Assembly (NCBI GenBank): GCA_917880885.1 | Contig: OU862934.1 | Coordinates: 28,690,734 to 28,754,733, forward strand | Reading direction: 5' to 3' | Source: Limnephilus marmoratus | Lineage: Eukaryota > Arthropoda > Insecta > Trichoptera > Limnephilidae | Length of the DNA: 64,000 bases | Shown here: positions 302 through 60,680 of the stretch, in pieces | Layout: every line of letters begins with the position of its first letter | Position numbering within the stretch: position 1 is the first letter of the stretch | Translations under genes and position numbers: made by a program | Notes under the pieces: model-generated | What the model was told of the DNA's origin: nothing | Seen by the model: the letters and a program-made list of their open reading frames with translations, nothing else | Database searches by the model: none

Positions 302-780
302 CTTTTTTTTTTTTTTTTTTTTACATTAACTCCACATAGGAGGCCCTGAGGAAAATAATTTCCCTCAGGGCCTATGTCATCTGGGATGCTGTGTGGAGGG
401 TCTTTTTGAGGAGAGGAAGGAATGAACATTGGTCTTGAAGAGACCCATGTTGTAGGAAGGAGGAAACACAGAGGCCGGCAAATCATTCCACAGCCGAGCT
501 GTTGAACACAAGAACGAGTCGAAGAAACGACCCGTTCTCATGTGACAAATGTCAACTGTGTACAAATGTTGGGCACGCGTTTGGCGTGTTTCCCGACTAT
601 GCACCGGTGCCGAAGGGATCAATGATGCTAGTTCCTCGGAGCATCTTCCATTGTAATACCGGTAGAACAAGGATAGCATTCCCACCCGACGCCTGTGCTC
701 TAAAGATTGCAATCCGTCTGTTAAGATGGGAGAATCTATCAAACGGACCGCACAGAGTCGAGGGTATTTTTCAGGTATTT
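302..780 (-). mobile_element. LINE family B, 3' end with tail hairpin and poly(A)
   Basis: On the minus strand this reads as the C-terminal part of a non-LTR retrotransposon ORF (motifs AVRLIDSPILT, SLEHRRRVGMLSLFYRYYNG, ARLWNDLPASVFP), a stop codon near 376, a short 3' UTR and a poly(A) tail (the T run at 303-322). The 3' UTR holds a perfect 11-bp hairpin at 341-373. Related pieces occur at 10508-10715, 14255-14600 and 40740-40900. The copy is 5'-truncated and abuts a different LINE at about 780. The clade (CR1- or Jockey-like) is inferred from the tail of the reverse transcriptase ORF. Confidence 0.8.
341..373 (-). other. 3' tail hairpin of LINE family B
   Basis: An 11-bp perfect inverted repeat, AGGCCCTGAGG against CCTCAGGGCCT, separated by an A/T-rich loop and lying about 20 bases from the poly(A) tail. 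The same stem is intact in the SINE copy at 32758-32790 and decayed in the copies near 40200 and 57890. The position fits a recognition structure for the LINE reverse transcriptase; that role is inferred. Confidence 0.7.
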
Positions 781-12651: not shown

Positions 12652-13414
12652 CCGTACAATCTCACTAATCCGGCACTTCAATAGACCGATACGTCCAATA
12701 ATCCGGCACCCTCCGCCGGCGCCTCCCTCGCCCCTCTACGCCTATGCGCTCCATCGCCGCGTCATCGTCTAGCAGTCTAACCTCAAACTTTATCTCATGT
12801 GCACATGTGTACGTATTGACTCCAGATACTAATATCTACAGTCTGTATGTCTGACGAATATCTACAGCTCATATGTTGAACTAATATCTACGAACTTCAG
12901 AGTGTTGACTAATATCTACAGAGCGTAGGTTGAACTAATATCTACAGAGCGTAGGTTGGACTTATCAGCTAAAGGTGTCCAATAGTCCAATATTAGGGAT
13001 TTTTACGTACATACTTACACGAATTAAGTTTTTTAAACTGCATACGCAATATTACGTTATTCCAATATGCTATACATAATTGCAAATCCAACCTCTGCCA
13101 GCGCTGTAGATATTCGTCAACACTTTGGTTCCCATAGATATTAGTCAACAGTTTGAGCTGTAGATATTCGTCAACACTTTGGTTCTCATAGATATTAATT
13201 CGATTTTTTCAGTTTTTGGAATTCCTGTAGATATTAGTAGACGCCTCCGTACGTATTTACCTGTTGTTTTGAAGTGTGAATAGTGTGTAAATTCTCTTTA
13301 TGAAATGCTTTGTTTTATTTATTATGTTTTTTTCTCTATGATCCAATAATCTGAACATTCAATAATCTGGCACCCTCTGGTTTTTAATAGTGCCGGATTA
13401 GTGAGATTGTACTG
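12652..13414. mobile_element. Tigger/pogo-like non-autonomous element, copy 1
   Basis: Ends are inverted repeats of about 24 bp (GTACAATCTCACTAATCCGG at left; its complement at right), flanked by TA on both sides. The inner motif AATAATCCGGCACC also recurs inverted. No transposase is present. It is split by a 432-bp insertion at 12818-13249. A second copy lies at 21911-23540. Confidence 0.85.
12818..13249. mobile_element. 432-bp element of the ATCTACAG family, copy 1
   Basis: Flanked by the 8-bp duplication TACGTATT (12810-12817 and 13250-13257). The Tigger copy at 21911 has a single uninterrupted TACGTATT at the same place, so the empty site is known. The left half repeats AATATCTACAG about five times and the right half carries its complement about four times. 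Copy 2 is at 44973-45403. Confidence 0.85.
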
Positions 13415-44972: not shown

Positions 44973-45403
44973 GACTCCAGATACTAATATCTACAGCCCG
45001 AATGTTTGACGAATATCTACAGCTCATATGTTGAACTAATATCTACGAACTTCAGAGTGTTGATAAATATCTACAGAGCGTAGGTTGTACTAATATCTAC
45101 AGAGCGTAGGTTGGACTAATCAGCTAAATGTGTCCAATAGTCCGATATTAGGGATTTTTACATACATACTTACATAAATTAAGTTTTTTAAACTGCATAC
45201 GCAATATTACGTTATTCCAATATGCTATACATAATTGAAAATCCAACCTCTGACAGTACTGTAGATATTCGTCAACACTTTGGTTCTCATAGATATTAAT
45301 CAACAGTTTGAGCTGTAGATATTCGTCAACACTTTGATTCCCATAGATATTAGTTCGATTTTTTCAGTTTTTGGAATTCCTGTAGATATTAGTAGACGCC
45401 TCC
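44973..45403. mobile_element. ATCTACAG-family element, copy 2
   Basis: About 430 bp, very close to 12818-13249 along its entire length. Flanked by GGTGATTG at 44965-44972 and 45404-45411. The termini are ambiguous by one base between the two copies. Confidence 0.85.
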
Positions 45404-51788: not shown

Positions 51789-52760
51789 TCAGAAGGTGCA
51801 ATTCACACGTGGTAGAAGTAAAACCTTCAGAAAACTAAAGTAGACGTGGGTGGGGAGGCTACGAAGCACCTCACAAAGAAGAGACCGATTATACTATCTC
51901 ATTCTCTCGCTGGCTAAATCCTATAGATGTATGTGTTTGTCTCTTTTTAGTGTCGCTATTTATCGTTTCATCGTGTTTCAAATCACAACGGTGAAAGAAG
52001 TTTTCACTTCAAAAAGTTCTAATAATTAAACACAATAACAACAAATAAATAAAAAAAGTAGTGTGTGCAGTTCACACGCGGTAGAAGTGAAACCTTCAGA
52101 AAACTAAAGTTGACAAGAGTGGGAAGGCTACGAAGCACCGCACAAAGAGGAGGCCGATAGTCTACGAAGCACGGCACAAACAGGAGACCGATTAGTTTAT
52201 CTCATTCTCTCGCATGCTAAATCCTATAGATGTATGAGTTTGACTCTTTTTAGTGTCGCTCGTTTCTGTTTCATCGAGTTTCAAATCACAACAGTGCTAA
52301 AGAAGTTTTCACTTCAAAATCAGAGTGTGCAATTCACTCGTGATAGAAGTGAAACCATCAGAAAATTTAAGTTGACAAGAGTGGAAGGCTACGAAGCACC
52401 GCACAAAGAGGAGACCGATAGGCTACGTAGCACCGCATAAAGAGGATACCGATTATATTATCTCATTCTCTCGCAGGCTAAATCCTGTAGATGTATGTGT
52501 TTGTCTCTTTTTAGTGTCGCTATTTTTCGTTTCATCGGGTTTTAAATAACAACGGTGCTAAAGAAATTTCCCCTAAAAAACACAAGTGTGCAGTTCACAC
52601 ACGGTAGAAAACTAATGTAGACAAGCGTGGGGAGGCTACTAATTACCACATAAAGATGAGACCGATTATACTATCTCATTCGTGTTTGTCTCTATTTAGT
52701 GTCGCTATTTATCGTTTCATCGAGTTTCAAATCACAACGGTGCTAAAGAAGTTTTCAATT
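51789..52760 (+). repeat. Tandem array of repeat R3, four units
   Basis: Units start near 51789, 52064, 52318 and 52578, about 180-275 bp each. Each begins GTGTGCAGTTCACACGCGG-like, then TAGAAGTGAAACC, and ends with GTGTCGCT...CAAATCACAACGGTGCTAAA and GAAGTTTTCACTTC. The unit ends are inverted (GAAGTGAAACCTTC against GAAGTTTTCACTTC). A nested duplication adds a second GAGACCGAT block in units 2 and 3. Confidence 0.85.
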
Positions 52761-53841
52761 CAATTAAAAAATCATGAGAACAACTAAAAACCGCAAAGTT
52801 CACTGGGAAAAACCCTTTGAAATATCCAATTCCTATCAATTCTTTGAAAACACTACACAACGTGTTGATCGCTTGCGCTGCTCTTATAAAAATGATATAT
52901 TCACCTTGAGAACGGGTTCTGCGGGTAGCAGTAATCCGCTGGCTCTCAAACTATTAACCTCCTTGTATTTTTTTAACACCACAAACCTCTGTAATATCAT
53001 CATCATCATGACTATTGGCTCTACAACCCCTGGTGGGTCTTGGCCTCCTCAAGACTCTTCCTCCACTCATCTCGGTTTTTAGCCCAGTCAGCCTGTGTTT
53101 TTAGATGGAACTAAATAGTATAAAGCTAATTTTTTCCCCATCGACTACTACCATTTAAACAAGTGTTTAGCAAAAAGTCCCCGCCCCTACCCCTCTTGCT
53201 TCCCCCCCTGTGCCCCCCCAAACATGAAAAGTGTAAGGGTTTCGTAAATCGCTTCTATCTCGATTACTAAACAACATATCGGATTGAATTTTTTTTATTC
53301 TCTTTGCTGTAATATTGTCTACAATTAATGTCCTGTTAACTTTCGTCGTAACTTTTACCGTTTGTTTGTAATTCGCAAGATAAGGTAAAAATTTGTATAT
53401 TTTTTGGCAAGTAATTTTACTTTTTGTCATATAACTTTTTACGCCGACATTTTATGAAAAAATATTTCCCACAAAAGTTGTAGCCCCTATTATTACCTTT
53501 AAAATGATATAAAAGAGTACTTACTTTGTTGGAGATCCAGCGAAATTATCATGGCGGGTTCGGTCGAGGTGGGGCCGGCCGGCGCGGCATTGCAATGCAA
53601 ATATTGTTGTATAGTGAGAGCGTTTTTTAACTTTAAGGTACACTATTGCATTTTCTATAAATAAAACTAATCGAGTCTCGGTGAAACCTAAATTCCTCAC
53701 TTTTTAAATTTGTTTCAAATAATAATAAGTATTCAGCGAAAATAGGTATTTTAAATAGTTTTTGTTTTGAAAATGCATGTAATATTTTTAAAGATGTTAT
53801 TTTAGAACAAAATAATTGCGGTATCTTAATTTTATGATATC

Positions 53842-56799
53842 TTAAACTTCCATGAGAAGTTCTTCATTTTCCTCGACTTCAACCAAAGTTAAATTGCTGC
53901 ATGATCCGCCACAGCTCCAGCACATTTCTGTGCAATCAAGTGATGCTTTAAAGCAGCTACAATTATTTTTGCAAGCCTTTTTGCAGTTGCAGGAAACTAA
54001 GTTTATAACTTCTTCAGCTGCCGGTGGTTTTTTTTGCACTGGGTACAGCATGTTGTCAGTTAAAATCCATCTCCAGTCCGTAGCGGTGATTTCCTTATCT
54101 CCGATCCATTTTTGAAGCAGCACCAGATGTTGGAGGGAGGGATGCCATATTAAATTTGGATTTTAATGACATTATTGCAACAGCTTTAAGGTACATTGAA
54201 TATCTACTGTCATTCAGACATGCAGACCTTGTGCATCCATATAGTTTCAAGACAAAAGCCTCTCCTACCTCTTTGAGAATATTTTTGTCTGCCTGTTTTT
54301 CATAAAACTGTAAAACTTTTGTGCGGAGATCATTTGATGAACTTAGCAATTTGTACGCGTTAATTTTGCCTTTGCCAAATAAATAAGACGTGGTATCACA
54401 TCCTGTGATAGCATGCAAACATAATATCACATCCTTCTTATCACCAATCTCTTCACGAATCTTGCTGATGTCATACGTTGATGGTGTGCCAGAGGGTTTG
54501 TGAAAGAATAGTCGCACATTTTGACACTGTGGTAGCCCTAACAATAGAACGAAAAGATCAGTATCCTGTCCGACTACAACTACAGGCCTCCCACTTTGAA
54601 TCTGGGAAACATCTATTGCTCTTCCGACCACTTCAGTATCTGCACCTTCCTCCGCCACAATGGTTGGAATGTTTGCTTCATTAAGCTTTTGAGAGAGCTG
54701 TTCAATAAGCTGGCTTTTGTCTTTTGGATTTGCCAAAAATTCATTTTGCTTCACAGAGCACTCCATATTAACGTTGAATTTCATTTCTAGAGATGTTTTT
54801 TTACTTCTCCGCATATGTTCGACCCTATTTGTGGTGGGATAGTCAGGATACCCATCGAACAAAACATGACAATCTTTCCCATACCGTTTCATTACAGTGT
54901 CAACATACTTCTCTATGATGCTGCTATATGTTACTTTGTCAGGTCAAATAACACAAAAGATACCCTCCATCTACTACATATATTTTTGGGGGCAAATTCT
55001 CAAAAACTTCGTTGCTATCTGTCCATTTTTCAAATATTTTCATAAGACTTGATTTAGTTCCCTTTCTTATCATTTTATTGTTTTCAAATAAAGACAAAGG
55101 GTATGGGCTGAGTTCATAGTTGAAGTATTGTTTGAGATTATTTGTTCCTTGAGACATACAAATAACCCTATTAAACAGCTGATCAGGATTAATTGGCACT
55201 TCTTCAGATCTCACATTATGCCACTTACTATGGAGCCTATAGTTTTAACTTTATTTTTGCTTTTCAATTTAACATCTGCAAAATTATTTCCTTCGATGTC
55301 TTTCAAGCAGTTCATTCCTACATCATACGCTTCATCGCAGTTTACACCCGAACTTATCACTACTAGACCAGAGGATAAAGACATTAAATCTTTGCTCTGT
55401 CGGAAAGGATTATGAATACGCAGCCATCCGAGAAATTTACTAATATCTTGCAAGTCCCTTTTTCTTCTACTGCATCTTAGTTCAGTGTGCGGTTCGTTAA
55501 ACTGAGTCAAGCAGCCAGAGAACTTCTCGAAAGCCTCACAAATTTGTAGGGATCCAGGAGCACAAGCAATGAATTTGGTTAGCGTCCTCTCGCTTAATCC
55601 TCGTCCATGAGTAAGCCCACCTATGGATTTTGATGATCGCATTAATGTCTGCTCTATGGTCATGCCGTCCAGATACCGGTAAAAAATCCATCTGTACGCC
55701 GAACTGTAAAGAAACCTTTATTGACGAACTTTTCGAAGTCTTCATTTGACATTTTCGTTTGTACACTCAACATTTGTTGTAAGTATATTTGTGCGGATTT
55801 GGCGTAGAGCAAATGTCCAGCAGCATGGAAACACGGTATCATTTGCTTGACTGTATTAATGTGCAAATTCCAATCGCCGATTCTCTCTGCCAGAATAAAG
55901 TCTAGAACCAAATTCACCAATTTAAACTCTTGTAGCCACGGTTTTGAAGTTCTACTAGTTTTAACCAAATCTTCATACACTTCTTCTAGTCTTTTCATTA
56001 TTTCATTTGTTTTACAATCTCTCATGGCGTCTTCAACAGTTGTTTGTTTGTTTATTGTTTGGTTATTAATATCCTTAAAGTCGTTTGTAATCATTTCTTT
56101 AAGAGATGAACATTCCTCGAATAGCAGTAATATCAAAGCTGCCTGAGTCATCAAGTGAGCTCTATAAGACCTTGCGTAAGCATGTTCTGACATAAGGTGA
56201 GGAATCGTTGATTTTCCATAAACAGAGGTACACATTTCTTCGATTCCATTACCTTCCATAAACTTTCCTAAGCAACCAAGGAAACTCATTAGAAGATGGA
56301 ATCCGCCTAGTCTTACGATTACTCCAGATATTTCACTTTCTATAGAAGAACTTGCAACAATGTCTACTGCTTTCAGGAAAAGTGGTTGGTCAAATGTCAC
56401 AATACACGGCTGGCCAGCTAACTTGCTTTCTTTAGAAGCGAAACTAAGGGCAGAGTAAATAGCAGTCGGATTTCCTGGATCTATGCTTATAAAAGGCAAA
56501 GCCTGTACATAAGATGGTTCAAAGTTTTGTCTATCATCGTAACAGTTTCGCATGTATCCAGACCATCCAGGTAGTGAAACTGGCACAAAAGCAAAACTAC
56601 ATAACCAAAGCATGTTACGAGCTGAGACTAAGCATTGAGTGGGCATATTTTCAGATTTTTTTTCTATTGTTAAGGACTTTAAGCCACTTTTCTCCTTTTT
56701 AGTATACATTAAAACTGGGACATTGAATTTACCTTCAAAGTCGCATGTCTTGACACGTGGAACTCGGACATCACTCGACACAGGTGTTTTTGGAGTCAC
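53842..56799 (-). pseudogene. Transposase-like + XPG/FEN1-like nuclease + CXC gene, element 2 (frameshifted)
   Basis: Four overlapping frames in order. 56799-55660: PVSLPGWSGYM, PFISIDPGNPTAIYSAL, CIVTFDQPLFLKAVDI, VIVRLGGFHLLMSFLGCLGK, ERIGDWNLHINTVKQMIPCF; conserved D/H residues suggest an RNase-H-like transposase part (inference). 55663-55211: GGLTHGRGLSERTL, LSSGLVVISSGVN. 55214-54939: LSPYPLSLFENNKMIRKGTKS and VVDGGYLL. 54892-54095: VLFDGYPDYP, VAEEGADTEVV, VVVVGQDTDLFVLLLG, ITGCDTTSYLFGKGK, matching FEN1/XPG motif order. 54123-53842: CXC cluster CNCKKACKNNCSCFKASL. Frame changes occur near 55670, 55212, 54940 and 54120, each at homologous sequence, so they are mutations and not gene borders; a spliced structure is less likely. 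Confidence 0.82.
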
Positions 56800-56817
56800 A
56801 GGATTACAGTAGATCCG

Positions 56818-56847
56818 AGGAACTGGCTATTTTAGGAGCCAGTTCCT
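56818..56847. other. 11-bp-stem hairpin upstream of the element 2 gene
   Basis: AGGAACTGGCT pairs with AGCCAGTTCCT around an 8-base loop, immediately 5' of the first coding frame. Role unknown. Confidence 0.8.
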
Positions 56848-57868
56848 GTTGGATTTACAAAATGGTCACAAACACTCAAACCGGGCGAAGCCGAACTAAA
56901 AGCCGCCCGCAGGGCCTAGCAGCAAAGTGAATAACTATTATTTCACGTTCACGATTTCCACTAGTACTACAAAGGGCACAGTACAGGCTAGGATAAGTCG
57001 GGATGTGAGGGAACAAGTTCCGACATCAGTGTCGCGGAGCGACGCAGGGATGGTGCGCAGCAAGCATTCACGGTTGATATCTGGCGTTTACTAGTACATA
57101 AAGTACACATTACAATATATCATTTTAAAGGTAATAATAGGGGCTACAACTTTTGTTGGAAATATTTTTTCATAAAATGTCGGCGTAAAAAGTTATATGA
57201 CAAAAAGTAAAATTACTTGCCAAAAAATATACAAATTTTTACCTTATCACACGAATTACAAACAAACGGTAAAAGTTACGACGAAAGTTAATAGGACATT
57301 AATTATAGATAATATTACAATAAAGAGAATAAAAAAAAATTCAATCCGATATGTTGTTTAGTAATCGAGATAGAAGCGATTTACGAAACCCTTACACTTT
57401 TCATGTTTGGGGGGGCACAGGGGGGGAAGCAAGAGGGGTAGGGGCGGGGACTTTTTGCTAAACACTTGTCTAAATGGTAGTAGTCGATGGGGAAAAAATT
57501 AGCTTTATACTATTTAGTTCCTTCAACTGGTGTTCTACGACACAGGCTGACTGGACCCAGCTCTCCCCAGTTTAGAAGCTCCAAGATAGATATGTCTTTG
57601 AGGACGTTGTCGCTCCATCTTAGTCTTGGTCTTCCCAGGCTCCTTCGACCTATTGGTCTTGAGTTCAGCAGGGACTTTGGTGCTTGATGCTCGGTCATTC
57701 TCTCCACATGACCCAGCCACCGAAGTCTTCCCAGTTTTATAAATTTTGCGACGTTTAGCTTCTCAAACACTTTGTTACAGAGGTATACTTTATACCTCTG
57801 TAATATACTTAGCACTTAGCACTATATTTTTCTTAAAGACGTTGTCTTGAGATTTGTGTGTATTTCCG

Positions 57869-59971: not shown

Positions 59972-60603
59972 GTAAAATTAAATAAAACTAATATATAATT
60001 AGGTAAATTTCCATTTACTTCACTTATATATATTATAATTTATAATACCCAAGCGGAAACTTGTAAATGGTACAATAAGCTAATGTAACGTATGTGAAAG
60101 CCTATTATTGATTAAATAAATTACTCATATTTTATCATACATTATAAATTATTGTAACTATTGGTTGTCCAAATAAAATAAAAATAAAATAAAATACTTG
60201 CTGTTTGCCCCTGGAAAATCGCGGAAAATAACTGCTTTACTTGTTAAAGGCCCGCAACCCGGATTTGTACCGATTTATTACATATTTCTCTTAAAAGTTT
60301 TAAAGCTCTTAAAAAATATATGTTATTCTTGAAGATAATATCTAGACTTTACCCGCGCCGAAACGCAGTGGCGGCGTAGGGTAGATTGGCACACCCGGGG
60401 CGGTTTTGTATTGAACACCCTACATAAAATAAAACACCAAATACTAAACATGCTTACGAGACTTCATTTTACTAAAATATTCTATCACAATATCAAGATT
60501 GTTTTCCCTGTCTCTTTCAATTGATAACATAGAAAAATTGATTATTAGCGCTTGGATCATTGTGGACCTTAAATAAGATTTTATTAAGTCAGAAAAAGAT
60601 ATT

Positions 60604-60680
60604 GGCACCTCTGGGACTCGAACGCAGGACCTTCCGTTTACATTGAAACAGCTCTACCAACTGAACTAAGGTGTCTATAC
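60604..60680 (-). repeat. tRNA-like sequence, inverse arm
   Basis: Minus strand: GGTAGAGCTGTTTCAATGTA, GGTCCTGCGTTCGAGTCCCA. Same as the plus-strand arm at 61262-61330, including the outer run TCAGAAAAAG. A SINE-type tRNA derivative, not a working gene. Confidence 0.7.

Follow-up and report, generated by a model that had tools for sequence, protein, structure and literature searches.

A non-autonomous, internally deleted DNA transposon, probably of the Academ kind, in Limnephilus marmoratus and the large protein family from which its decayed gene derives

We analysed a stretch of 64,000 nucleotides from Limnephilus marmoratus (assembly GCA_917880885.1, contig OU862934.1, positions 28,690,734 to 28,754,733), hereafter the window, in which a preliminary description had proposed a DNA transposon with an XPG/FEN1-like nuclease and a CXC domain. 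The element, at 53084-57554, comprises 4,471 bp between inverted repeats of about 430 bp, and its gene-like content lies entirely on the minus strand as five open fragments that lie between 56826 and 53842 and change frame four times. The claim that a single decayed gene is enclosed is thereby borne out, and this gene is further missing residues 1-464 of a protein of about 1,460 residues (numbering follows the homologue P0001 throughout), among them the first putative catalytic aspartate, D441.

Fragment 1 (55660-56826, minus strand as for all gene features here; 388 amino acids) belongs to the transposase part, with family homology from residue 465 (56799), and carries VTFDQP (56383-56400), containing the second putative catalytic aspartate (D601), and RLGGFH (56296-56313), containing G629 and H632. 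The transposase part ends in fragment 2 (55211-55717; 168 amino acids), the putative catalytic glutamate E847 standing in MTIEQT (55646-55663). The nuclease starts in fragment 3 (54939-55244; 101 amino acids) with IYVVDGG (54963-54983; D1075), and most of this XPG/FEN1-like domain lies in fragment 4 (54095-54943; 282 amino acids), with VLFDGY (54848-54865; D1115), AEEGADT (54635-54655), VGQDTD (54557-54574; D1212 and D1214) and GCDTTS (54386-54403; D1268). Fragment 5 (53842-54162; 106 amino acids), the C-terminal part, holds a CXC-like cluster of nine cysteines (53899-53991). All the motifs named in the preliminary description are present, but its EEGADTE is a mutated form: the family has aspartate (D1185) where glycine stands here, D1187 being kept, and this glycine was seen in the window copy, L021 and L022 out of 21 genomic places compared. 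The BLAST reading gave methionine at D1075 for the same three copies and glutamate for four other loci; the methionine in the window is a wrong-frame artefact, fragment 3 reading VVDGG. A profile search, suggested at the outset, gave no Pfam match above the curated cut-off for the five fragments, the CXC model (Pfam TCR) reaching only E 0.67.

The inverted repeats reported earlier with CCAGTCA tips are real. The tips at 53084-53098 and 57540-57554 pair at 100% over 15 bp, the ungapped blocks 53104-53296/57332-57524 and 53289-53511/57116-57338 match at 99% and 96%, and the gapped alignment gives 94.3% identity across 439 columns. However, comparison with other copies places the true ends, TAGYCCAGTCAG...CTGACTGGRCTA, 4 bp further out. 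The left terminal inverted repeat therefore spans 53080-53512, with the true tip TAGCCCAGTCAG, and is 4 bp longer than first described; the right one spans 57116-57554 and is followed at 57555-57558 by ACCC where RCTA is expected. For the comparison, 20 places of 10 kb each were fetched from the source genome and joined by the window to make 21, with L006, a short piece, excluded. Both ends were readable in 20 of the 21, L012 showing one end only, and the repeats thus delimit 19 further copies on either side, which excludes a chance pairing. TAGY is found on the left in 19 of these 20 copies (all but L018) and RCTA on the right in 16 (all but the window copy, L016, L018 and L023). Directly outside TAGY and RCTA, an identical trinucleotide flanks both sides in 17 of the 20, the exceptions being L013, L018 and the window copy. 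Any other offset between 0 and 8 yields none or one such copy among the 20, and a crossed control yields 19 matches in 380. The window copy reads TAGC at its left end, which it has kept, and ACCC at its right edge, which is altered, and it shows no duplication.

Searching the joined flanks of the 20 copies returned something across the junction for seven. Four insertions (L014, L023, L025 and L027) have empty sites among the sequences examined, namely repeat copies without the element, in which the trinucleotide occurs once and neither TAGY nor RCTA is present; that for L025 is the repeat at window 447-606, and those for L014 are repeat units within the L014 locus itself. The candidates for L016, L021 and L024 were discounted owing to gaps, to a trinucleotide that did not agree or to an identity of about 70%, and the same search found no empty site for the window copy's own insertion among the sequences examined. 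End bases, duplications and empty sites thus agree on a mobile unit that runs from TAGY to RCTA and duplicates 3 bp of its target. The repeat at 447-606 also has copies at the same spot in L011, L013, L020 and L028. Read by eye, the flanks of the window copy (57510-57815 and 52954-53100, both minus strand; frames …RLRWLGHVERM… and …SGGRVLRRPRPTRG…) resemble the C-terminal end of the reverse-transcriptase protein of a long interspersed nuclear element (LINE), near the 3' end of which the element seems to have inserted.

A search of the source genome (1.63 Gb, 67 contigs) with the nuclease fragment, for which 138 of 5,077 first-look candidates were scored, gave at least 139 matches. None of the 21 places matches residues 1-464 of P0001: in 18 of them homology starts at 465, whereas L015 starts at 468 and L014 and L020 further along. 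Leader and junction look the same in 12 of the 15 displayed copies. The window copy is 99.7% identical across 4,477 bp to L021, a copy on a different contig that is flanked by AGG at either end, and L021 and L022 share the open frames of 388 and 168 amino acids seen in the window copy. Since a near-identical decayed copy with the same frames sits on another contig, the broken copies have spread recently, and a full-length protein probably acted in trans to move the one in the window. A query with residues 1-468 of P0001, aimed at the full-length source of the window family, yielded 91 matches out of 702 candidates but no near copy: identity peaked at 38%, and we read these matches as other families. 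More than 30 near-alike places on many contigs match only about residues 157-467, at about 36%, with an open frame of 371 amino acids, and are perhaps an amplified derivative of another family.

The preliminary description had proposed a search for intact copies with the same tips; an intact gene between inverted repeats exists in the same genome, but in a different family. On contig C5, a 6,150-bp element whose bounding repeats match at 95% over 547 columns has the tips TAGCCCAGTCAAG...CTTGACTGGACTA with TTA on both sides, and encodes a protein of 1,488 amino acids (from the first methionine) with all ten acidic positions and the nine cysteines described below. The tip pattern was searched in the source genome with one mismatch allowed; other matches start TAGCCCAGGCA (L035, L037-L039) or TACTCCAGTCA (L032-L034). 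Within L037-L040, TACTCCAGACA resembles the tips but was discounted, since it looks like part of a coding region. Open frames of 1,498 amino acids at C1:4556804 and C3:166083 came up in the search with residues 1-468.

The read-through protein of the window copy, used as query, gave 385 homologues at E ≤ 1e-3 out of 6,890 candidates, and 120 of these homologues are listed. Among the 120, the closest is P0001 (86% identity; 1,463 amino acids; longest contig 5,377 bp), and those with names come from insects and one octocoral, several being labelled Tesmin/TSO1-like CXC. We aligned the 78 listed proteins of 1,380-1,540 residues, which are 34-66% identical to P0001 (median 38%). D441, D601, E847, G629 and H632 are identical in all 78; the ten acidic positions of the Asp-Asp-Glu (DDE) and nuclease sites are all kept in 77, as are the seven of FEN1 type taken alone; the nine C-terminal cysteines are all kept in 75 and eight N-terminal cysteines and histidines in 70. 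The spacing of the nine cysteines in P0001, C-x-C-x3-C-x3-C-x-C-x6-C-x3-C-x2-C-x3-C, is presumably close to the tesmin CXC pattern. The order of domains had been called unusual, which does not hold: the 78 proteins align over both halves, so that this order belongs to a large known protein family.

Structure prediction gave what had been anticipated, a transposase-like first half and a nuclease fold in the second. The model of the first half resembles the P-element, Hermes and RAG1 transposases, suggesting a DDE transposase of RNase H fold in which a helical insertion separates the second aspartate from the glutamate, and that of the second half has an Exo1/FEN1/XPG fold. For the N-terminal half, Foldseek by itself returned nothing at E ≤ 0.001; its top rows, to the IS621 recombinase (E 0.06-0.1, TM-scores ≤ 0.14), were set aside as chance, and RAG1 rows came next. 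Models and conservation together thus predict a full-length protein of about 1,460 amino acids with N-terminal cysteine/histidine pairs (probable zinc fingers), a DDE transposase, a FEN1/Exo1-like nuclease and the CXC-like cluster, with two active sites. Among 30 full-length members, Pfam (E ≤ 0.05) matched DUF6589 in eight, XPG_I in one and CXC in none; the literature searched contained no mention of DUF6589. Of 58 pattern matches in viral contigs, none was confirmed.

Elsewhere in the window, a tandem repeat just left of the element (52063-52609) has a period of 261, 2.1 copies and 85% matches. A pair of short tandem arrays, with periods of 26 and 28, lies at 12828-13196 and again about 32 kb away at 44983-45351, perhaps because a single repeat element is present twice. 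ARAGORN predicts a tRNA-Tyr (gta) at 60603-60675 on the minus strand, either a gene or a tRNA-derived repeat.

The window copy is ordinary, but its family raises the question of why a complete P-element-like DDE site is accompanied by a second, equally conserved site predicted to cut flaps. The same genome offers intact 1,488-amino-acid relatives, with known ends and 3-bp duplications, on which this can be tested directly. Deleted copies that retain no gene could moreover be spotted by the tips TAGYCCAGTCAR together with the 3-bp duplication.

By analogy with similar transposases, the DDE site would cut the element ends and join them to target DNA with a stagger put at 3 bp because the target duplication is 3 bp, and the full-length protein would mobilise broken copies in trans. 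FEN1-type enzymes are 5'-flap cutters, and the FEN1-like site may trim 5' strands of a branched intermediate; our best guess is that it removes the element 5' strand as a flap where element and target are joined, or else that the non-transferred strand is what it cuts. A narrower version, tentative and in our view rather unlikely, is that the domain would resect 5' flaps after strand transfer, the target being joined while the element 5' ends are still on donor DNA. Such a step has a precedent, since in phage Mu 5'-flap resection is mediated by the transposase (PMC3325207). If true, it would be a eukaryotic parallel to phage Mu, achieved through a dedicated second active site beside a P-element-like DDE site in one polypeptide. 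It is also quite possible, although we would not bet on it, that the FEN1-like domain has no part in cutting or joining, the DDE site doing all of this and the nuclease serving, for example, donor-site repair or element replication. Indeed, it is well established that the P element and Hermes, which have the closest folds, need no such domain to transpose. However, the 78 proteins conserve the seven acidic positions as strictly as the DDE triad, the nuclease shares a polypeptide with the transposase, and a passage of PMC10045372 suggests a connection between the different enzymes of AcademX and AcademH and the length of their duplications.

Taken together, the window element is very probably a non-autonomous, internally deleted DNA transposon of the Academ kind, in the AcademX lineage as matched by literature description rather than by Repbase sequence. 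Academ elements have an XPG nuclease and a Cys8 zinc finger, and the preliminary description had named Academ as the nearest superfamily, which the nuclease and the 3-bp duplication support. That a host gene with a nuclease and a CXC domain came to lie between repeats by accident has next to no probability: its animal relatives are annotated, among the matches listed, as uncharacterized or CXC-domain proteins, but the nuclease fragment occurs at no fewer than 139 places and is enclosed by the repeats of the window copy in 20 of the 21 examined (with a single end in one more), and on these counts, together with the duplications and empty sites, we reject a host gene for this locus. It is improbable, too, that the family forms a separate superfamily sharing with Academ only a layout of P-element-like DDE transposase, FEN1-like nuclease and CXC-like cluster. 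Academ was compared by description, and in the relevant passage of PMC10045372 the wording is just 'nuclease'. Yet the family's nuclease and 3-bp duplication agree with that description of AcademX (nuclease, duplication of 3 or 4 bp), its DDE transposase with the listing of Academ among DDE superfamilies in parts of PMC9587614 and PMC10294476, and its size of about 5.4-6.2 kb lies close to the mean of 5,565 bp that a passage of PMC10294476 reports for Academ elements of bivalves. AcademH is described in PMC10045372, again in a passage, as having a helicase and a duplication of 9 or 10 bp. The name Academ goes back to Repbase Reports 2010 (cited in the reference list of PMC4455052), and a literature search on Academ, XPG and their structure turned up, as judged from titles, no paper about the XPG nuclease of Academ.

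Compared with known systems, the nuclease resembles FEN1, Exo1 and XPG in predicted fold and catalytic acidic residues (with glycine at D1185 in the window copy), whereas the first acid of its DAD motif is aspartate rather than their glutamate and it is fused to a transposase. With the P element, hAT elements such as Hermes, and RAG1 the family shares a predicted RNase-H-type transposase with a helical insertion, although no sequence match was found in PDB at E ≤ 1. The P element and hAT make an 8-bp target duplication, in contrast to the 3 bp seen here, and lack the extra nuclease and CXC-like part. AcademH belongs to the same superfamily by literature, and DUF6589, which AcademH may or may not carry, matches eight of 30 members here; however, no Pfam helicase was among the families matched by any of the 30 at E ≤ 0.05, and the duplication is far shorter. 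The nine conserved cysteines may or may not correspond to the Cys8 finger of Academ. To conclude, the likeness is closest to AcademX: a predicted P-element-like DDE transposase with an invariant triad (of which the window copy has lost D441), a conserved nuclease of predicted Exo1/FEN1/XPG fold, a long element for which no difference in kind was found beyond the deleted and broken state of the window copy, and a 3-bp duplication seen in 17 of 20 copies, matched by the empty sites of four insertions and present, as TTA, in the sister family on C5.
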